NCBI RefSeq assembly: GCF_024436035.1
Contig: NZ_JANFNG010000030.1
Location: 1 to 64,000 of the forward strand
Length of the DNA stretch: 64,000 nt
Origin: Streptomyces humicola
GTDB taxonomy: Bacteria; Actinomycetota; Actinomycetes; Streptomycetales; Streptomycetaceae
Direction: 5' to 3'
Position 1 is the stretch's first letter; the number at the start of each line of letters is the position of its first letter. This document shows, one piece after another, positions 34,165-46,942 of this stretch. Made by a program: the position numbers and the translations under genes. A model generated the notes under the pieces. That model was not told the origin of the DNA and did no database searches. It was given only the letters and a program-made list of their open reading frames with translations.

Positions 34165-34581
34165 TCAGGCACGGGCGCAGTCGGGGCACAGGCCCCGGTA
34201 GGTCACCTCGACCTCGGAGACGGTGAAGCCGAACCGCTCGGAGGCGGGCAGATCGGCCAGTGGGTCGCCGCCGGGGCGGACGTCCCGAATGGCGCCGCAG
34301 CCAGAGCACACCAGGTGCTGGTGGGGGCGGTGGGCGTTCGGGTCGTAGCGCTTGGCGCGGCCGTCAGTGGCCACCTCGATCACCTCGCCGAGCGCGACGA
34401 GCTCGCCGAGGGTGTTGTAGACGGTCGCGCGGGAGATCTCCGGCAGCCGGGCGGTGGCGCGCGCGAGCACCTCGTCGGCCGTGAGGTGAACGTGCTCGCC
34501 GTCGAGTACCTCGGCGACCACCCGGCGCTGGGCGGTCATCCGCCAGCCACGTCCGCGAAGCCGTTCCAGCAGGTCACTCAT
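34165..34581 (-). CDS. Fur-family peroxide/metal regulator (CatR-like)
   Basis: This 138-residue repressor has a winged-helix domain (GWRMTAQRRVVAEVL and EISRATVYNTLGELVALG) and a dimerisation domain with metal sites HRPHQHLVCSGCG and a C-terminal GLCPDCARA, giving two CxxC pairs. These features match the PerR/CatR branch that senses hydrogen peroxide. The ATG at 34581 gives the usual family start. It is divergent from a promoter that once drove a catalase gene; the Fur-like palindrome at 34644-34658 overlaps that promoter. It probably still controls this region and itself. Confidence 0.88.
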   Translation of the reverse strand: MSDLLERLRGRGWRMTAQRRVVAEVLDGEHVHLTADEVLARATARLPEISRATVYNTLGELVALGEVIEVATDGRAKRYDPNAHRPHQHLVCSGCGAIRDVRPGGDPLADLPASERFGFTVSEVEVTYRGLCPDCARA

Positions 34582-34641
34582 GCCCACCAACCTAACAGTG
34601 CAGCGTCTGATGAATGAATCCGTACGGGTCTGGTTGCCGTA

Positions 34642-34669
34642 TTGACTTGGATTGAGTCCATCGTAGGAT
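34642..34669 (+). promoter_or_regulatory. Sigma-70-type promoter overlapped by a Fur-like box
   Basis: TTGACT (34642-34647) and TAGGAT (34664-34669) are separated by 16 bases, close to the HrdB consensus. The inverted repeat GACT-N7-AGTC (34644-34658) covers the -35 element and spacer, so a bound Fur/CatR protein would block polymerase. The promoter points into the truncated catalase/fur chimera and then katG. Confidence 0.65.
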
Positions 34670-34715
34670 CGGGTCCGGCGGCAGCCAAGGGACAGGACAA
34701 CAGCAGGGAACGCAC

Positions 34716-35144
34716 GTGACGGTTCAGGAGACGGGTCCGCCCACCACCGAATCCGGTGCCCCGGGCGCGGACAACCAGAACAGCGAGCAGCGCGGCGCCG
34801 GCGCCTGGACGGTGCCCACCTCGACGTCTAGGCGATCGCACTCCGGGGGTGCGCGATCGCGTAGGCCGTATCTCCCTTCACCCCATGAGGCCCTCCATGC
34901 GCTCACCGGGTCGGGACTCGTACGCGGCATCGAGCCGGCCGGCAGCCCGGCCCGGTTCGAGGGATGCGTCGGCGACCACCACCACGTCGTGTGCCGGTCG
35001 TGCGGTGTCGTCGCTGCCGTCGACTGTCCGGTCGGCGAGGCCCCCTGCCTGACCGCGTCCGACGACCACGGCTTCTCGATCGACGAGGCCGAGGTCATCC
35101 ACTGGGGCCTGTGCCCCGGCTGTTCCACCGCCCGCAGTGCCTGA
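34716..35144 (+). pseudogene. Chimeric remnant: catalase N-terminus joined to the C-terminal half of a FurA-type regulator
   Basis: The GTG at 34716, with AGGGAA upstream, starts [15 protein letters not shown] followed by ADNQNSEQ, which matches the N-terminal arm of monofunctional heme catalases (KatA/CatA). Homology ends after about 25 codons. After a short GC-rich hairpin, the same frame resumes at [19 protein letters not shown] and continues through [11 protein letters not shown] to HWGLCPGC. That is the second half of a Fur-family regulator lacking its DNA-binding helices. A 142-residue chimera could still be made, with metal-binding cysteines but no DNA-binding domain. It precedes katG by 33 bases, the usual place of furA. 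Confidence 0.75.
34832..34860. repeat. Hairpin at the catalase/furA fusion junction
   Basis: GCGATCGCAC and GTGCGCGATCGC form an imperfect inverted repeat around TCCGGGG exactly where catalase similarity ends and Fur similarity begins. It may mark the deletion endpoint or be left over from an inserted element. Confidence 0.5.
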
Positions 35145-35162
35145 ACACCGTGATCCGTCTAG

Positions 35163-37409
<2,247 letters not shown>

Positions 37410-39122: not shown

Positions 39123-39413
39123 TCAGACGATCACCTCGAACCGGGTGACGCTGCGCTCCGCCAGCTCGGGCAGGGCCTCGCCGAGGACGTAGGACTTGAA
39201 GGCCTCGGTCTCCCGGTGCTCCTCGTAACCGGACGCGTCGGTGTACTTCTCGTACAGCACGAAGGTGTCCGGATCCTCGGCGCTCACGTGCGCCTCGAAC
39301 TGCAGCATCTTTTCCTCAGCGCGGTTGAGCGGCGCCACCGTCTCCAGGATCTTCCGGATGCGCGCGGCCCGGCCGGGCTTGGCCTTCCAGGTCGCGATGA
39401 CCACGTGGGGCAT
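39123..39413 (-). CDS. ABM-domain protein (putative quinol monooxygenase)
   Basis: This is a 96-residue dimeric ferredoxin-fold protein of the antibiotic-biosynthesis-monooxygenase family. The characteristic pieces are TWKAKPGRAARIRKILETVA, MLQFEAHVSAEDPDTFVLYE and the final aromatic EEHRETEAFKSYV. Members oxidise quinols or act on reactive aromatics without cofactor. The ATG at 39413 follows AGGA. It is the last gene of the monooxygenase operon, 17 bases after the L22/MIP18 fusion gene, so it may process a hydroxylated aromatic product. Confidence 0.8.
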   Translation of the reverse strand: MPHVVIATWKAKPGRAARIRKILETVAPLNRAEEKMLQFEAHVSAEDPDTFVLYEKYTDASGYEEHRETEAFKSYVLGEALPELAERSVTRFEVIV

Positions 39414-39430: not shown

Positions 39431-40177
39431 TCAGAAGTGGGTGAAACCGATGGCGCGGAGCTGATCGCGGCCGTCTTCGCTGATGTCGGCCGGCCGCCAG
39501 GCCGGCAGCCAGGACCACTCGATGTGGAAGTCCGTCACGAGACGGGACTCCTCCAGGAGCACCGTGCGGATCTGGTCGCGCATCACCTGGGTCAGCGGGC
39601 AGGCGGCCGAGGTCAGGGTCATCGTGATGATCGCGTCACCGCCGGCGGCCACCTGGATGTCGCGGACGAAGCCCAGATCCACGATGTTGACACCGAGGTC
39701 CGGGTCGATCACCTGGTACAGGGCGTCACGGACCGCGACGGCACGGATGTCGGGCGGACCGGCCGCCGGGGGGGCGGGTGGCGCTTCCTCCCGCGGGGCC
39801 GGCTCTGCAGCGACATCCCCGGGAAGACCGTGCAGGCCTGCCGGCCGCAGCTCGATCCGCACGTCGGAGGTGGGACTGCTGATCCAGTCGGCCTTGCCGT
39901 GTGCCTTGCGGCGGACCCGGACGATGTCCTCGGCCGTCTCCGCAGTGCCGCCGAGCACGACCAGCTGCTCGGCGCCGAGGCCGGCCCGTCCTGCCCGGGC
40001 GAGTGCCTTGTCGATCAGTCGTGCCACCGGTTCGCAGGTCCGGCCGGGGCCGAGCCTCAGCTTCGCCACGGCCTGGACGGCCGTCAGCCCGCTGACCGAT
40101 TCGAGCGCGGCGCTGGCGTCGGCCGCAGCGACCCGGGCCTGCCGCTCGTGGACTGTCAACACTCCGATACTGGTCAT
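39431..40177 (-). CDS. Fusion of a ribosomal protein L22-like domain with a MIP18/SufT-type (DUF59) Fe-S maturation domain
   Basis: Residues about 25-110 resemble ribosomal protein uL22. VAKLRLGPGRTCEPVARLID corresponds to the segment ending PVAKVI in L22; AGLGAEQLVVLGG follows as in L22, and VRRKAHGKADWISSPTSDVR corresponds to the arginine-rich beta-hairpin. After a Pro/Ala linker, residues about 145-248 form a MIP18/PaaD-type domain (VIDPDLGVNIVDLGFVRDIQ and TSAACPLTQVMRDQI with the conserved cysteine), a family that helps assemble or deliver Fe-S clusters. It lies between the reductase and ABM genes of the monooxygenase operon, which contains one Rieske cluster and one diiron site. Maturation of either is my inference. 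Confidence 0.72.
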   Translation of the reverse strand: MTSIGVLTVHERQARVAAADASAALESVSGLTAVQAVAKLRLGPGRTCEPVARLIDKALARAGRAGLGAEQLVVLGGTAETAEDIVRVRRKAHGKADWISSPTSDVRIELRPAGLHGLPGDVAAEPAPREEAPPAPPAAGPPDIRAVAVRDALYQVIDPDLGVNIVDLGFVRDIQVAAGGDAIITMTLTSAACPLTQVMRDQIRTVLLEESRLVTDFHIEWSWLPAWRPADISEDGRDQLRAIGFTHF

Positions 40178-40202: not shown

Positions 40203-41444
40203 TCAGACTCGGGCGGCCGCCCCGCGGGTCCGCGGCACCAGCCGCTTGAGCGGGACCGACTCGTCCCGCAGCTGCTCGGCGTTCACCTGGTGCGGCTCGA
40301 ACAGCAGGCGCCGCACCGCCAGCACGTCGCCGGGTCGGTTCAGCGAGACCACGCCCCGGATCCGGTCGCCGGCCAGGGAGAAGGCGGAGAAGCTCCGCTC
40401 CGCCATCGAGCCGCGGATCACCAGGCCGTCCGGATCCCGCGGCCGGCCTGCCGCCTGCAGGCTGTGCTCGTACTGGTCGGACCAGAACCAGTAGGTGTCG
40501 GCGTGCCCCTCGCTCGCGCCGGTCAGCGTGGCGGCGACGTTCGCGCCCTGGCGCAGCGCGTTGTCGTGGTGCTCGACGCGGATCCGGCTGCGGTAGACCG
40601 GGTGGTACTGGGCAGCGACGTCCCCGACCGCGTACACCCCGGGCGCCGTGGTCCGTCCGTACTCGTCGACCACAATCCCGTTGCCGGTGGCGAGCCCGGC
40701 CCGCACGGCGAGCTCCACATTGGGCTCGGATCCCACGCTCACCAGCACCAGATCGCATTCCACCCGCTTGCCGAGGTTGGTGGTCAGCAAGAGCCCGTCC
40801 CGGGTGCGCATGAGCGAGGTGGCGTACTCGCCCGGGCGGACATCCACGCCATGCTCCCGGTGGACCTCCGTCACAACGGTCCCGATCGCCGAACCGAGAG
40901 CCCGCTCCAGCGGAGTGCCGGCCGGCTCGAGCACGATGACGTGCTTGCCGAGCCCGGCCGCGGTGGCGGCGACCTCGCAGCCCACGAAGCCCGCGCCGAG
41001 GACGACAAGGCGCTGCGACCGTGCGAGTTCGGCGTGCAGCCGCCTCGCGTCCGCGGCGGTGCGCAGATGGTGCACGCGTTCACCGTCGAATCCGGGCAGC
41101 TTCCGTGGCCGTAGGCCGGTGGCGAGCACCAACGCGTCGTAGCCCAGCCGCTCGCCGGAGGACAGCGTCACCGACCGCGCACTCGGGTCGAACGACGCGA
41201 CCCGGGTGCCCAACCGGAGCTCGACCTCCTGCTCGCCGTACCAGGCAGGTTCGCGGGCCTGCAGCTCGCCGAAGTCCGCGGTCCCTGCGAGGAACCCCTT
41301 CGACAGCAAAGGCCGCTCGTAGGGCAGATCCGGCTCTTCGCCGATCAGCGCGATCTGCCCGTCGAACCCGCGCCGGCGCAGATGGGAGGCGGCTGACGCG
41401 GCCGCGACGCCGCCTCCTACAAGCAGGTAGCGCCGCGTGCTCAT
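40203..41444 (-). CDS. FAD-dependent NAD(P)H:ferredoxin reductase of the monooxygenase
   Basis: This 413-residue flavoprotein belongs to the pyridine-nucleotide-disulfide/BphA4-like ferredoxin reductase family. The FAD motif is YLLVGGGVAAASAASHL, the NAD motif is LVVLGAGFVGCEVAATAAGL, and GVYAVGDVAAQYHP binds FAD. It should pass electrons from NAD(P)H to the Rieske ferredoxin encoded immediately upstream. This differs from toluene and isoprene monooxygenases, whose reductase is usually an FNR-type protein with its own plant-type [2Fe-2S] cluster. The ATG at 41444 overlaps the ferredoxin stop (ATGA). Confidence 0.88.
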   Translation of the reverse strand: MSTRRYLLVGGGVAAASAASHLRRRGFDGQIALIGEEPDLPYERPLLSKGFLAGTADFGELQAREPAWYGEQEVELRLGTRVASFDPSARSVTLSSGERLGYDALVLATGLRPRKLPGFDGERVHHLRTAADARRLHAELARSQRLVVLGAGFVGCEVAATAAGLGKHVIVLEPAGTPLERALGSAIGTVVTEVHREHGVDVRPGEYATSLMRTRDGLLLTTNLGKRVECDLVLVSVGSEPNVELAVRAGLATGNGIVVDEYGRTTAPGVYAVGDVAAQYHPVYRSRIRVEHHDNALRQGANVAATLTGASEGHADTYWFWSDQYEHSLQAAGRPRDPDGLVIRGSMAERSFSAFSLAGDRIRGVVSLNRPGDVLAVRRLLFEPHQVNAEQLRDESVPLKRLVPRTRGAAARV

Positions 41445-41767
41445 CCGACGTCCACCAGGATCATGCCGTCCTCGTTCACCCGGCACGGGAAAGCGGTCAG
41501 GTGGCAATTGTCCGGATTGACGCCCCGGCCGTCGCGGGCGTCGAAGACCCACATGTGGCGCATGCAGGTGATCTCCTGTCCGTCGAAGTCGGCCTCGTCG
41601 AGCGCCCACGCCTGGTGCGGACACTTGTTCTCGTAGGCGCGGATCTCACCGTCCACGTTGACCAACAGGATCTTCTTGCCACCGATCTCGACGGGCTCCT
41701 TCTCGCCTTCCCAGAGGTCCTCGAGCGCCATGGCTTCCTGCCACTGACCGGTCATCGCGCTGCTCAT
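41441..41767 (-). CDS. Rieske-type [2Fe-2S] ferredoxin of the monooxygenase
   Basis: This small electron carrier of 108 residues matches T4moC/TmoC in length and motif spacing. Cys49 and His51 are in NKCPHQAWAL and Cys68 and His71 in ITCMRHMWVFD, the CxH-N16-CxxH pattern. It connects the flavin reductase to the diiron hydroxylase. The ATG at 41767 overlaps the beta-subunit stop; the long upstream frame is a shadow. Confidence 0.92.
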   Translation of the reverse strand: MSSAMTGQWQEAMALEDLWEGEKEPVEIGGKKILLVNVDGEIRAYENKCPHQAWALDEADFDGQEITCMRHMWVFDARDGRGVNPDNCHLTAFPCRVNEDGMILVDVG

Positions 41768-42789
41768 CGCAATCCCTCGAACACCCTGGCGTGGAAGGCC
41801 TCGCGTGCGGCCCGGGCACCGGCGGCCACCTGGCTCGCGTCGTGACCGCGCTCCGGCCGTGTCTGCAGGAGCCCGCCCAGCCCCGCGGCGGCTTCGTCGG
41901 CGATCGGGGTCCAGCGCCGAATCCAGCGCCGCAGCGCTTCCTCGTTGCCGGGCTGTTGCTCCACGCAGAACGACACCAGTGCGGCGCTCCACCGGTTGCG
42001 CCGGTCACTGTCCGCCTGCAGGAACGAGGCCAGCAGCCACGACAGTTGGTCGCCGTTGTCACGGGAGACCTCCCGGAACTGGCGGATCAGCACGTCGTCC
42101 AGGGTGGGCGCGAGCACCAGGTTGAGCGCCGTGAACGCCTCGCCCCAGTCATAGGCGATCAGCGCCTTCTCGATCGCCCGGCGGGCTGGTTGCCAGCTCC
42201 CGTCGGTCTCCCAGATCCGCCGCTCACTCTCGCCGATCCCCGAGTCCGGGTGGGCGAGCTGCAACTCCCTGGTGCGGTACGCGGTGAGCGTGACCCGCCG
42301 CAGGAAGTCCGCGGCCGCGAACCCCGCGGCGTTCGTGATGTAGGACGTGGGCGCCATGTACCCGACGTAGGCCTCGATCTGCTGGCAACCGTGGACCAGG
42401 TACCGGGACGGGGTGTACAGACAACGCAGCAGGGCCAGTTGCCCGGGCAAGAGTGCGCGGTCCGCCTCCGCCTCGGCGTACTCCTCGAGCACGCCGCCGG
42501 TCTTCGCCTCGGCGTCGGCCTGCATCGAGACGTAGGCGCGGTAGGTCAGTGAGTCCGGGTCGCGGAACTGCTCCCAGTCCTCGGCCTGGAGTGGCGAGTT
42601 CTCCCGGTAGGTGAGGAACCACAGGTTCGCCGGCGACGACGGGTTCTGCTCGAACGCGGCAAGCCGGTTCGACCGGGTCGTCCAGTTCTGGGCGTGGGTC
42701 ATCACCTCGTACTCGCTCGGCATCCTCCGGACGTCGCCGAAGGCGCTGAACGTACGGCGGGGACGCGGCTTCTTCGCCGGAACGGTCAT
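41764..42789 (-). CDS. Diiron monooxygenase hydroxylase beta subunit (TmoE-like)
   Basis: This 341-residue protein has the ferritin-like helical fold of the hydroxylase beta subunit without iron ligands. The recognisable segments are YEVMTHAQNWTTRSNRLAAF, the N-terminal arm, and VHGCQQIEAYVGYMAPTSYI with AAADFLRRVTLTAYRTRELQ in the core. It pairs with the alpha and gamma subunits to form a (alpha-beta-gamma)2 hydroxylase. The start lies four bases after the coupling-protein stop and its own stop overlaps the Rieske gene. Confidence 0.92.
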   Translation of the reverse strand: MTVPAKKPRPRRTFSAFGDVRRMPSEYEVMTHAQNWTTRSNRLAAFEQNPSSPANLWFLTYRENSPLQAEDWEQFRDPDSLTYRAYVSMQADAEAKTGGVLEEYAEAEADRALLPGQLALLRCLYTPSRYLVHGCQQIEAYVGYMAPTSYITNAAGFAAADFLRRVTLTAYRTRELQLAHPDSGIGESERRIWETDGSWQPARRAIEKALIAYDWGEAFTALNLVLAPTLDDVLIRQFREVSRDNGDQLSWLLASFLQADSDRRNRWSAALVSFCVEQQPGNEEALRRWIRRWTPIADEAAAGLGGLLQTRPERGHDASQVAAGARAAREAFHARVFEGLR

Positions 42790-42793
42790 CGGG

Positions 42794-43102
42794 TCACTCC
42801 CTTCCCGCCAGGGCGTCGCGGCGGGCGGACACCTTCTCCCAGGTGATCGAGTCGCTCGTGGTGATGATCCGGCCGTTGAACGAGGACATGATCGCCTCGA
42901 GCGAGCGGATCGCGTAGTCGGCGCCCAGGTAGGCGCGCAGGGTCTGTTGGGTGAGGGTGATGCGGTCCTCTGCCTGCACCCGGACGTAGGAGCCGCGGTC
43001 GATGACCTCGATCTCCTTTCCGGGGTTGTCGTCTTCGATCGCCGCGACGACCTTGTCGATCTCGTCCCCCATGCGCAGGATGGGGCCGACAGGATTCTTC
43101 AC
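42794..43102 (-). CDS. Monooxygenase coupling/effector protein (TmoD/MmoB/DmpM family)
   Basis: This cofactor-free effector of 102 residues binds the hydroxylase and tunes oxygen activation. The family features NPVGPILRMGDEIDKVVAAI, DRGSYVRVQAEDRITLTQQT and LGADYAIRSLEAIMSSFNGR are all present. The start is GTG at 43102 with AAGGGAA upstream and overlaps the gamma-subunit stop as GTGA. Confidence 0.93.
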   Translation of the reverse strand: MKNPVGPILRMGDEIDKVVAAIEDDNPGKEIEVIDRGSYVRVQAEDRITLTQQTLRAYLGADYAIRSLEAIMSSFNGRIITTSDSITWEKVSARRDALAGRE

Positions 43103-43407
43103 TTCGTTCCCTTCGGCAGGTCGTACTCGACACGGACGTGGTCGTGCGGCTCGATTCCCGCCTCGGCCACCGTCATCTCCGGGGGCAGACGCCGGCCGCG
43201 GTGGAAGACCACCTTCTCGTGAGGCAGGGCCCGCACCCGCTTGCCTTCGACGTGGTGCGCGACCGCCGCGGCGACCTCGCGGACGGTGTTCGCGGTGGTG
43301 ACCGGCACCAGGATCTGGACGAAGTCGGTGGCGAAGATCGCGTTGAGCGGCACCAGCTGCGGTGGCTGGTCCTGCAGGTCGCGCTCGGCGGTGGAGTTGT
43401 CGGTCAT
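43099..43407 (-). CDS. Monooxygenase hydroxylase gamma subunit (TmoB-like)
   Basis: This 102-residue ubiquitin-fold subunit of toluene-type hydroxylases begins with PQLVPLNAIFATDFVQILVP, the TmoB start. It continues through VVFHRGRRLPPEMTVAEAGI to HDHVRVEYDLPKG. The N-terminus is about 20 residues longer than in toluene 4-monooxygenase. The ATG overlaps the alpha-subunit stop. A gamma subunit of this type places the system with group 2 (toluene/isoprene/alkene) enzymes. Confidence 0.9.
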   Translation of the reverse strand: MTDNSTAERDLQDQPPQLVPLNAIFATDFVQILVPVTTANTVREVAAAVAHHVEGKRVRALPHEKVVFHRGRRLPPEMTVAEAGIEPHDHVRVEYDLPKGTK

Positions 43408-44936
43408 GACTCCTCGCTCTCGGCCGGGGCCAGGGCCAGACCGGTCGCGGACCGGCCGACGTAGTCCTTCGTCCAGGCGGCGTAGTCCGGGTCGTCGCCC
43501 ATCACGTCCGGGGTCAGGCCCATGTAGCCGAGAATGCCGCTGACGTCCATGGGCTGGATCTGGCCGGCCAGGAACCGGTCGATCACCGTCTCGTGATTGA
43601 CGTTGTCGCGGTCCTTCCACCAGATCTGCCGACAGGCGTTGGTGCAGAAGTGGTGGGTCTTGCCGTCGTACTTCAGCGACCAGTCACGTACGCGCCAGCT
43701 GCCGTCGCGGGACTGTGTCGGGTTGCACGCCGGCAGGTGGCACATGTTGCACAGCCAGGGCAGGGTCTCCGGCAGCGTCGCCTCGACGTTGTTGGCGTTG
43801 ATGTTGTCGATGATGACGTCCCACTTGTCGCCGTAGACGCCCTCCCAGTTCGGGTACTTCTCGCGCAGCCACTCACGCTCGTCCTTGCTCACCCCGGCCT
43901 TCGGCCGCCACCAGATGGTCGGTCGCCAGAACCAGAGGCCCATGTGCAGCGCGTGGTGCCAGGTGTCGAGGCCGCGCATGAACTCGTCCCAGAACCAGGG
44001 CTTCTTGAGTCCGTAGTCCTGGATGGTCCGTATGTATTGGTCGATGATCCACTCTTCCATGAACTCCCGGTAGGACTGCTTACGGTGTTCCAGCGGGGTG
44101 TAGTAGTCCATGGCCGGGCCGGTGAGCGCGGCGAACGCGCGGGCGGAGCCCCAGAAGCTCTTCTCGATGACCCACTGGGCGCGCACCGGGTCGTGCTCGA
44201 CCAGGATCTCCAGCGTCGGGCCGCCCTGCTGGGAGTGGCGTGCCTCGTCGGTCTGGATCGAGGAGATCATGTTCGCGAAGTTGACGTCGCCGGACTGCAG
44301 CGCGTCCGCCGACAGAGCGACGAACTGGAGGTTGGTGAAGCCGGTCTCGAAGGTGAACGGCAGCTCGATCGCCAGGTCGACCACGTTCGGGGCGATCATC
44401 ATGCCGTCGAACAGGTTCCGCAGCGAGATCGGCACCCAGCAGTTGGTGTGGAACGTCTTCTGTGTCCAGTCATACTGCGGGTCCTTGCCGACGAACTCGT
44501 GCCCGAAGAAGGTGGTGATCTGCGAGTGCCGCAGCTCGTCCAGTTGACCGAAGGTGGCCATGTTCCGCCAGGCGCCGTTGAGCCCGAAGCGGGCCATCTT
44601 CAGCTCGCCCAGCATCGCGGCGTACTCGACGAGGGCAATACCGCCGAAGTGCATCTTGGTGGAGGACTTCCAGCCCTCGTCGAGGGTGTCGAACGAACTG
44701 GACCGCTGCAGCGCCGCCTTCACCGCGTAGGCCGCGGACTCCTTCTCGCGCTGGGTCGCTACGTATTCGGGGTAGGTGACCTTGTAGTCCTCCTCCCACT
44801 TCAGCCAGGCCTCCCGCGGCACCTTTCCGGTGCCGCTGTGCCATTCCGGATACACCGCCTCGTCGTCGACGTAGGAGAAAGCCCAGTCGACGTCGCGGAC
44901 GAAGTGCTGCCACTCTTCTCGCCTCAGCAGGCTCAT
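43404..44936 (-). CDS. Soluble diiron monooxygenase hydroxylase alpha subunit (TmoA-like)
   Basis: This is the catalytic subunit, 510 residues. All six diiron ligands are present and fall at the same numbers as in toluene 4-monooxygenase: Glu104 (GGIALVEYAAM), Glu134 and His137 (LDELRHSQ), Glu197 (PFTFETGFTN), Glu231 and His234 (TDEARHSQ). The active-site Thr201 is kept. Position 103 is Val where toluene 4-monooxygenase has Gly, so the pocket differs. The C-terminus has the family's YHS-like cysteine segment (LCNMCHLPAC and HHFCTNACRQIWW). It should insert oxygen into an aromatic ring or alkene. It is the first enzyme gene after the SnoaL-like pair. Confidence 0.95.
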   Translation of the reverse strand: MSLLRREEWQHFVRDVDWAFSYVDDEAVYPEWHSGTGKVPREAWLKWEEDYKVTYPEYVATQREKESAAYAVKAALQRSSSFDTLDEGWKSSTKMHFGGIALVEYAAMLGELKMARFGLNGAWRNMATFGQLDELRHSQITTFFGHEFVGKDPQYDWTQKTFHTNCWVPISLRNLFDGMMIAPNVVDLAIELPFTFETGFTNLQFVALSADALQSGDVNFANMISSIQTDEARHSQQGGPTLEILVEHDPVRAQWVIEKSFWGSARAFAALTGPAMDYYTPLEHRKQSYREFMEEWIIDQYIRTIQDYGLKKPWFWDEFMRGLDTWHHALHMGLWFWRPTIWWRPKAGVSKDEREWLREKYPNWEGVYGDKWDVIIDNINANNVEATLPETLPWLCNMCHLPACNPTQSRDGSWRVRDWSLKYDGKTHHFCTNACRQIWWKDRDNVNHETVIDRFLAGQIQPMDVSGILGYMGLTPDVMGDDPDYAAWTKDYVGRSATGLALAPAESEES

Positions 44937-44958: not shown

Positions 44959-45432
44959 TCAGTCGACTTCGAGATGCCCGAGCTGGGTGTTGATGCCGGC
45001 GTTGTTCCAGTAGGCCTTCACCTTGTCGATGAGTCCCGACTCGTCGACGTGGAAGAGGAACAGGTGGGGTTCGCGGAACTTCTTGCCCTGCGGGGCGGCC
45101 AGCGCCCACGCGATCTGCTGCGTGCCCCCGATGTCGCAGGTCACCACGACGTCGCCGTGCTCGTTCGCATCGACGCTGTGCACCTCGTTGAACAGGTTGG
45201 GGAAGGAGTTGATCAGCCCGGTCCAGATGACCTTGCCGATGGTCCGCACCTTCCCGTCCCCGCGCAGCACGCGCTGCTTTCCCCACAGTTCGAAGGGGAC
45301 GTAGGAGAAGTCGGCGTTGTCCGTGCACTTCTCGACCATCGCCTCGATGTCGTGGCGCCGGTAGGCGCCGAAGAAATCGGAGACGACCTGGGCGGCGATC
45401 CGGCTGCGACTCGTCATGTCCGTGGTTGTCAT
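44959..45432 (-). CDS. SnoaL/NTF2-like protein 1
   Basis: This 157-residue NTF2-fold protein carries SDFFGAYRRHDIEAMVEKCT at the start, WTGLINSFPNLFNEVHSVDA in the middle, and GLIDKVKAYWNNAGINTQLG at the end, the usual SnoaL layout. Such proteins are cyclases, isomerases or hydrolases, or bind small hydrophobic molecules. The ATG at 45432 follows GAGGA. It lies 22 bases before the hydroxylase alpha gene and eight after a second SnoaL-like gene. Confidence 0.82.
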   Translation of the reverse strand: MTTTDMTSRSRIAAQVVSDFFGAYRRHDIEAMVEKCTDNADFSYVPFELWGKQRVLRGDGKVRTIGKVIWTGLINSFPNLFNEVHSVDANEHGDVVVTCDIGGTQQIAWALAAPQGKKFREPHLFLFHVDESGLIDKVKAYWNNAGINTQLGHLEVD

Positions 45433-45440
45433 CTTCGTCC

Positions 45441-45866
45441 TCACACGATTGCGATCTGGTCGACCCGTTTGACGGCGAGGCGCCGGTAGAGCTGGCCCTG
45501 GCACCAGTACACGCCGACTGCTGTGATCCGCCCGGCGGCGACGGTGAACCGCCACGCCTCGTCGAGGTCGAGGTGCTTCTCCTGGTTGACCACCCCGAGG
45601 TAGTCGCGGGCCTGGGTCCCCTCGACCTTGAGCTCGACGGTGACCACGGAGCCCGTCGGGATGACGTTGAGCACGGTCACGCGCAGGTCGGGGAACGCGG
45701 CCACGATCTCGCCCAGGAGGCCGCGCAGGTCGTCGAACCCGCCCGCCCGCACGCCGAGCGGGAACACGTCGGCCTGTACTGAACCGCCCACTACGGACAT
45801 CGCGGTCTCCACGTCACCGAGCTGGAACGCGGTGAGGAAGGCCTGCACGGTCTGTTCCGGTGTCAT
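45441..45866 (-). CDS. SnoaL/NTF2-like protein 2
   Basis: This is a second NTF2-fold protein of 141 residues (TPEQTVQAFLTAFQLGDVET, then AFPDLRVTVLNVIPTGSVVT and FTVAAGRITAVGVYWCQGQL). It is related to its neighbour but clearly diverged, so it may be an old duplication or a heterodimer partner. The ATG at 45866 is used here. A GTG six bases upstream is better spaced from GGAG and may be the real start. Confidence 0.8.
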   Translation of the reverse strand: MTPEQTVQAFLTAFQLGDVETAMSVVGGSVQADVFPLGVRAGGFDDLRGLLGEIVAAFPDLRVTVLNVIPTGSVVTVELKVEGTQARDYLGVVNQEKHLDLDEAWRFTVAAGRITAVGVYWCQGQLYRRLAVKRVDQIAIV

Positions 45867-45922: not shown

Positions 45923-46942
45923 TCACCGGATGCCCAGGGCCTTCAGCACGGCATCGGCGGTCGCCTCGGTCGAGCCCGGGTTCTGGCCGGTGATCAGGTT
46001 GCGGTCGACCACGACGTGCGAGACCCACGCCGAAGGGGCGTCGTCGAACACGGCGCCTGCGTTCTTCAGCGCGGCGTCCAGGTACCACTGCATACCGATC
46101 CGGCCCGGCGCGGTCTGGTCCTCCTCCTCGTCGGTGAAGCAGGTCATCCGGTAGCCGTCGAACAGCCACTGACCGTCCTCGCGCTCCGGCGCGGACAGCA
46201 GCAGCGCCGGGCCGTGGCACAGCGTCGCGATCGGCGCGCCCTTGTCGTGCAGGATCTTCAAGAGCCGTCCGGCGTCCGGGTTGTCCGCGAGGTCGACCAT
46301 CGGCCCGTGCCCGCCCGGGGCGAACACCGCGTCGAACTCGCCGAGTCGGGAGTCGCTCAGGCTTGCCAGCGAGACCGGGGCGCGGAAGCCGGGGATCGCG
46401 TCGAGCTTGCCCTCGCGCTCGGCCGACAGCGCACGGGCGTCCTCCTCGAGTTCGTCCACGGCCGCCTGGATCTCCGCCCGGGACAGTCCTCCGTCGAGTG
46501 CCTCGGTGACCATCACCTCGGGCAGTTGGCGATCCTCCCGCCACGCGATCTTCGCTGCCCTGCTGACGAGCGCGTGCGCGTCGGCGAAGGTGGCACCGCG
46601 TTCCCTGAGCCTCTCGGTGATGCGGCGGCCGGCGACCAGGCCCAGCTCCGTCGTGTGGTGCAGCGTGATCCGGATGTCGTCCGGGTCGTGGTGGAACGTA
46701 CGGGTCACCGAGGCGAAGAAGTCCATGTCCTGCTCGGGAAAGTGGAAGAAGTACTCGAGCCCGTAGGGGTCGGCCGTCGGCGGCCGACCGTCCGGAGTCA
46801 GGACGACGACGTCGGCTCCGGCGGCGACGAACCTCTCGTAGGGCTTGATGGCCTCCTCGGCGAAGTAGCCGGTGGGATGGGTGGCGCCGTCGGCGAGAGC
46901 GATCTCGCTTGCACTCGAGACGAGATAAGCAATACGGGGCAT
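45923..46942 (-). CDS. DJ-1/PfpI-family protein, large form
   Basis: This 339-residue cytoplasmic protein of the DJ-1/PfpI superfamily has an extra segment of about 110 residues in the first half. The nucleophile elbow is APIATLCHGPALLL with Cys followed by His, and FDAVFAPGGHGPMVDLADNP supplies the glutamine/glycine loop. Family members include glyoxalase III-type and deglycase-like enzymes. The ATG at 46942 follows AGGAG. It is the first gene of the leftward monooxygenase operon, which suggests it handles an aldehyde or dicarbonyl product. Confidence 0.83.
   Translation of the reverse strand: MPRIAYLVSSASEIALADGATHPTGYFAEEAIKPYERFVAAGADVVVLTPDGRPPTADPYGLEYFFHFPEQDMDFFASVTRTFHHDPDDIRITLHHTTELGLVAGRRITERLRERGATFADAHALVSRAAKIAWREDRQLPEVMVTEALDGGLSRAEIQAAVDELEEDARALSAEREGKLDAIPGFRAPVSLASLSDSRLGEFDAVFAPGGHGPMVDLADNPDAGRLLKILHDKGAPIATLCHGPALLLSAPEREDGQWLFDGYRMTCFTDEEEDQTAPGRIGMQWYLDAALKNAGAVFDDAPSAWVSHVVVDRNLITGQNPGSTEATADAVLKALGIR

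Follow-up and report, generated by a model that had tools for sequence, protein, structure and literature searches.

The window, a 64,000-nucleotide stretch of the Streptomyces humicola genome, carries a diiron-monooxygenase operon whose genes run along the minus strand in the order SnoaL-like, SnoaL-like, TmoA, TmoB, TmoD, TmoE, Rieske, reductase, uL22/SufT fusion and ABM. The original prediction had placed the fusion gene between the reductase gene and the last gene of a Rieske-plus-diiron operon, and this location held up, with Pfam assigning the small gene that follows to the ABM family. The operon and its nearest upstream neighbor comprise the following genes:

45923..46942, minus strand: DJ-1/PfpI-family gene, a conserved upstream neighbor (tblastn against the annotated R. 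koreensis cluster)
45441..45866, minus strand: SnoaL/NTF2-like protein 2 (Pfam SnoaL_2; conserved in the operon)
44959..45432, minus strand: SnoaL/NTF2-like protein 1 (Pfam, weak; conserved in the operon)
43404..44936, minus strand: diiron hydroxylase alpha subunit, TmoA-like (Pfam; phmmer to ToMO alpha, E 5e-172)
43099..43407, minus strand: hydroxylase gamma subunit, TmoB-like (Pfam TmoB)
42794..43102, minus strand: effector protein, TmoD/MmoB-like (Pfam MmoB_DmpM)
41764..42789, minus strand: hydroxylase beta subunit, TmoE-like (Pfam Phenol_Hydrox)
41441..41767, minus strand: Rieske [2Fe-2S] ferredoxin with conserved ligands C49, H51, C68 and H71 (Pfam; column check)
40203..41444, minus strand: ferredoxin reductase, Pyr_redox_2 plus Reductase_C (Pfam)
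39431..40177, minus strand: uL22-like/SufT-like fusion protein, 248 aa (ORF; Pfam PF00237 and PF01883; AlphaFold2 model and fold matches)
39123..39413, minus strand: ABM-domain protein, the last operon gene here (Pfam PF03992)

Using Pfam, we found the component set of a group 2 SDIMO of the ToMO/T4MO type: alpha, beta and gamma subunits, effector, Rieske protein and reductase. The alpha subunit is nearest to that of toluene/o-xylene monooxygenase (ToMO), and substrate oxidation by the enzyme of the window is predicted. The operon shares the three hydroxylase subunits, the effector and the Rieske ferredoxin with ToMO but differs from it in its A-B-D-E-Rieske-reductase order, its Pyr_redox_2/Reductase_C reductase, its upstream SnoaL pair and its uL22/SufT factor. 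Upstream, between 45923 and 49086, the DJ-1/PfpI gene, an opposite-strand glutamine-amidotransferase-like gene and an AraC-type regulator are conserved neighbors of the operon. Downstream of ABM, four related loci (L006, L010, L015 and L152, from Arthrobacter, Nocardia and two Rhodococcus) carry serine hydroxymethyltransferase and semialdehyde dehydrogenase genes, which hint at the product of the pathway.

The fusion ORF starts with ATG 25 nt after the reductase stop, with GGAGAAGGA 5′ of the start and a good ribosome-binding site. Its residues 11-110 match PF00237 Ribosomal_L22 at 46.9 bits (E 3e-12; cut-off 28) and residues 148-207 match PF01883 FeS_assembly_P/DUF59 at 61.2 bits (cut-off 23.5). 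We modeled the protein with AlphaFold2 using only the fusion protein and 15 relatives as input, and the following features were delineated within it:

39836..40165, minus strand: uL22-like domain, residues 5-114 (Pfam; VIA match to M. tuberculosis uL22)
40034..40036, minus strand: Cys48, invariant among the uL22-like domains (33 distinct copies aligned against 30 ribosomal uL22)
39881..39919, minus strand: hairpin-tip signature R87-V-R-R-K-A-H-G-K-A-D-W-I99 (motif scan; hairpin strands of the model)
39755..39835, minus strand: disordered linker, residues 115-141 (pLDDT 34-49)
39440..39754, minus strand: SufT-like DUF59/MIP18 domain, residues 142-246, with D158-P-D160 and T189-SAA-C193 (Pfam; SufT grouping; motif)

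Both domains are under purifying selection: dN/dS is about 0.16-0.4 in most pairs for the uL22-like domain (maximum 0.59) and 0.2-0.3 in most pairs for the DUF59 domain (maximum 0.56), while the linker evolves near neutrality, with dN/dS of about 1 in most of the more diverged pairs. A chance or low-complexity match was ruled out by Pfam, phmmer, two structure models and this purifying selection.

The N-terminus had been predicted to follow ribosomal protein uL22, and the structural comparisons bear this out. The AlphaFold2 model reproduces the topology of uL22 together with its long hairpin (strands 72-90 and 96-112); its top Foldseek match is M. smegmatis uL22 (1.5e-9), and VIA-align gave a Z of 14.6 to M. 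tuberculosis uL22. With phmmer against PDB sequences, the single sequence matched M. smegmatis uL22 over residues 8-108 (E 1.2e-6). A stand-alone uL22-like protein from a split operon was modeled with a mean pLDDT of 87.6, above that of the fusion model, and again had uL22 as its top match; all seven stand-alone proteins examined exceed the Pfam cut-off.

To describe how far this domain has moved from its ribosomal counterpart, we compared 33 distinct uL22-like domains with 30 actinobacterial ribosomal uL22 sequences. Fold, length, long beta-hairpin and core-packing positions are retained, and the nearest uL22 proteins are actinobacterial by both phmmer and Foldseek. In contrast to rplV, the gene lies outside the ribosomal operon and scores 37.2 bits on the NCBIfam rplV_bact equivalog, far under the cut-off of 73.65; a normal rplV is present elsewhere in the S. 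humicola genome. The basic residues K20, R22, R29, K88, R100, K103, R104 and H107 (numbered on the fragment of this genome's own uL22), near-invariant rRNA-binding positions of ribosomal uL22, are mostly substituted, with R22 still Arg in 57% of the uL22-like domains. Lys and Arg together make up 13.4% of residues instead of 19.9%, and the mean net charge is +2.5 where ribosomal uL22 has +10.1; these means are slightly off because one or two of the 30 ribosomal sequences seem to be mis-framed. Cys48 is new and present in 33 of 33 uL22-like domains of these operons, where ribosomal uL22 has mostly Ala or Ser; Arg90, His93 and Trp98 are further gains, and a Lys has become Arg53. The tip motif R-[VI]-R-R-x-A-H-G-x-A-x-W-I occurs in 38 of 39 copies, the sole exception being the second copy of Amycolatopsis rubida, which adjoins an intact separate copy. 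These sequence comparisons identify the uL22 part as a divergent paralogue that is not ribosomal.

The C-terminus was correctly called a DUF59/MIP18 domain with the TSAACP cysteine, an assignment that we could refine. Its motif is DPD-X28-TSAAC, which agrees with the reactive-cysteine motif of SufT/DUF59 proteins, DPE-X26-31-T-X2/3-C (PMC9045647), except for the change of Glu to Asp. Among solved structures, the top-scoring relative is M. tuberculosis SufT (Rv1466, PDB 5IRD; phmmer against PDB sequences, E 8.5e-29), with which it shares the DUF59 domain and the T-x3-C motif, and the fusion model gave a Z of 14.3 to the DUF59 protein 3lno by VIA-align. The domain is much nearer to the SufT of its own genome than to that genome's PaaD or Mrp; on a model of the domain, the genome's PaaD scores 37 bits and its SufT 131 bits. 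PaaD identity was rejected on NCBIfam equivalog scores (45.3 versus 108 and 67 versus 180 bits) and on the weaker score of the genome's own PaaD. As far as sequence can tell, the DUF59 part is thus a SufT paralogue, not PaaD. It differs from SufT itself in having DPD, in falling below the NCBIfam SufT-type cut-offs, in being joined to or beside a uL22-like domain and in belonging to a monooxygenase operon rather than a suf operon; the separate SufT-like gene of S. humicola lies on another contig (C13). PaaD of phenylacetyl-CoA epoxidase, a DUF59 protein whose gene accompanies those of a multicomponent diiron oxygenase, is nonetheless the nearest functional parallel, although its sequence match is much weaker, it has a C-terminal zinc-ribbon-like part and it lacks uL22.

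Next, we characterized the distribution of the fusion. When about 85,000 species genomes were scanned for its close relatives, 15 loci emerged. All share the same arrangement, although some are truncated by contig ends or have no ABM gene, and in one fragment (L011) the reductase is missing from its usual position. Hosts named for these loci are Streptomyces, Pseudonocardia, Amycolatopsis, Arthrobacter, Nocardia and Rhodococcus, along with uncultured actinobacteria. The operon is also present on an annotated R. koreensis plasmid, where the fusion is labeled only as "iron-sulfur cluster assembly protein." A second survey covered 390 genomes of the family of Pseudonocardia dioxanivorans, and there all full-length fusion matches lay inside such operons, one of them decayed. 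The proposed tie to TmoA-type genes therefore holds in every readable neighborhood, and the alternative of a fusion found mostly outside monooxygenase operons was not seen in the genomes surveyed. In the decayed copy (L081), the TmoE, reductase and DUF59 frames are fragmented; that genome also has an intact operon.

A TmoA search of the 390 genomes separated two groups, with 72-93% and 44-59% identity to the TmoA of the window. Across all loci read, the first clade spans 72-98% identity, and the uL22-like gene is present in 37 of the 37 first-clade operons with the downstream side in view, a count that does not represent independent trials because these operons share descent. The 37 comprise 27 in which the gene is fused to DUF59, 9 with separate genes and 1 with both forms; two more first-clade operons are cut by contig ends and were left out of this total. 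Neither domain was found in the 24 more distant, group-2-like operons of the second group, of which about 5-10 kb was read, with some loci truncated. Among relatives lacking both is L102 (59% identity), which is sister to the clade and points to acquisition of the pair at the clade base. One of the 24 operons belongs to S. humicola itself: it encodes a second TmoA-type monooxygenase (L043, contig C11, ~68062-69462; 46% identity) with a Rieske protein and a beta subunit, and no uL22-like or DUF59 gene was found near it.

The early-branching separate genes go beyond the original prediction, as do the loss of rRNA chemistry, the new cysteine and hairpin tip, and the relatives without both domains. 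The uL22-like gene is closed by a stop codon of its own in the second operons of P. dioxanivorans and A. rubida, and also in seven further genomes. Directly behind it comes the DUF59 gene in 9 of the 10 operons with a separate uL22-like gene, usually through an ATGA or TGATG overlap and otherwise after a gap of 4 or 30 bases. Among the 9 operons with separate genes only, DUF59 adjoins in 8 and lies about 10 kb away in 1 (L099). In the TmoA tree, a single nested clade (support 0.98) unites the fused operons, with the separate ones branching outside it. The uL22-like domains cluster together (support 1.0), and a long branch sets them apart from the 30 ribosomal uL22. Because of these two trees, we infer that separate genes were probably ancestral and that a single fusion followed.

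Several individual loci are worth recording. The distant DUF59 gene (L099:14446-15363) is on the opposite strand, near AMP-ligase, aldehyde dehydrogenase and acyl-CoA dehydrogenase genes. Another genome, which has no TmoA match, carries the same type of DUF59 near a contig end and apart from a uL22-like gene (L154). In A. rubida (L013:7877-9750), a separate uL22-like and DUF59 pair is followed by an apparent reductase remnant and then by a fused copy, the one without the hairpin-tip motif; this is probably a merged or decaying duplicate operon.

What might this protein do? The original prediction proposed a dedicated cofactor-maturation or assembly factor. Its premises of architecture, fold and operon linkage stand, and we consider it somewhat probable that the protein acts as a maturation (targeting) factor dedicated to one clade of ToMO-like soluble diiron monooxygenases, which is the most likely reading of the role. 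The DUF59 identity behind the term "Fe-S carrier" was also sustained, but the term itself is less apt. M. tuberculosis SufT binds neither iron nor cluster and needs its cysteine for contacts with SufS, SufU and client proteins (PMC9045647), so a targeting role fits better than that of a carrier. The C-terminal domain would then be a duplicated SufT that presumably reaches the SUF machinery and a client through C193. The N-terminal uL22 paralogue, with most rRNA-binding residues gone, may serve as a client adaptor that offers the apo-client its conserved hairpin tip and its C48-E-P-x-x-R53 patch. The most likely candidate client is the Rieske ferredoxin, since no other Fe-S protein is evident in the operon; iron loading of the hydroxylase would be the second. 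A bolder and tentative form of this proposal is that a ribosomal protein underwent duplication, gave up its rRNA chemistry and now acts as the client-recognition subunit of an enzyme-specific Fe-S or iron maturation factor, with its tunnel hairpin docking on or inserting into a metalloenzyme.

Rieske loading alone is an insufficient explanation, since other Rieske-using diiron monooxygenases, one of them in the same genome, lack the factor. A column check of TmoA and the Rieske protein found no metal site unique to the first TmoA clade. These two observations are why we hold the maturation reading with restrained confidence and keep an unlikely but serious rival in play, namely that the factor serves the hydroxylase. 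Here the uL22-like part would bind TmoA/B/E, either as a complex or as subunits, and the SufT-like part would supply or retain the diiron iron or chaperone assembly. The lineage-specific need does track the hydroxylase clade, and among the partners compared, the Rieske protein correlates least in distance with the uL22-like domain (0.60; the others reach 0.77-0.86), although these correlations single out no operon partner. However, DUF59 proteins are known for maturation of Fe-S rather than diiron sites, and the diiron ligands are identical in relatives without the factor.

Much less probable is a role at the ribosome, in which the domain would replace uL22 or bind near the tunnel while the SufT-like part acts on nascent operon products. 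The retained fold and part of the tunnel hairpin would allow this, but the substituted basic residues and lowered charge argue against it, and the normal rplV product would compete for the site. We regard as very improbable a regulator that binds the operon mRNA and reports Fe-S status through its SufT-like domain; uL22 is an RNA-binding fold and the tip retains three arginines, but basic charge is reduced and the conserved AraC-type regulator already sits beside the operon. Equally improbable is that the protein is a structural subunit residing permanently in the oxygenase or electron-transfer complex; although the factor occurs in the operon as consistently as the catalytic subunits do, ToMO/T4MO-type enzymes are complete without it and the DUF59 motif is retained.

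The original prediction knew of no characterized protein with this architecture, and we likewise found no paper on a uL22-DUF59 protein or on the present operon in the open-access literature, to which the search was confined (subscription papers lay outside its scope). The component families are known; a non-ribosomal uL22 as the operon-bound partner of a SufT-like domain appears to be undescribed. It is a clear case of a universal ribosomal protein recruited outside the ribosome and, if the client-recognition reading is true, would assign a ribosomal fold to a new class of function. The system bears on the question of client choice by maturation factors and on the exact job of SufT: evolution has linked a SufT-like domain to a single client set, alongside a candidate adaptor and in both separate and fused form, which makes client choice testable with few genes. 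Heterologous expression of these monooxygenases would probably need the uL22/SufT gene to be included. Finally, close to the operon (34165-37409), a Fur-family regulator gene is divergent from a KatG-like catalase-peroxidase gene, both named from their translations only.
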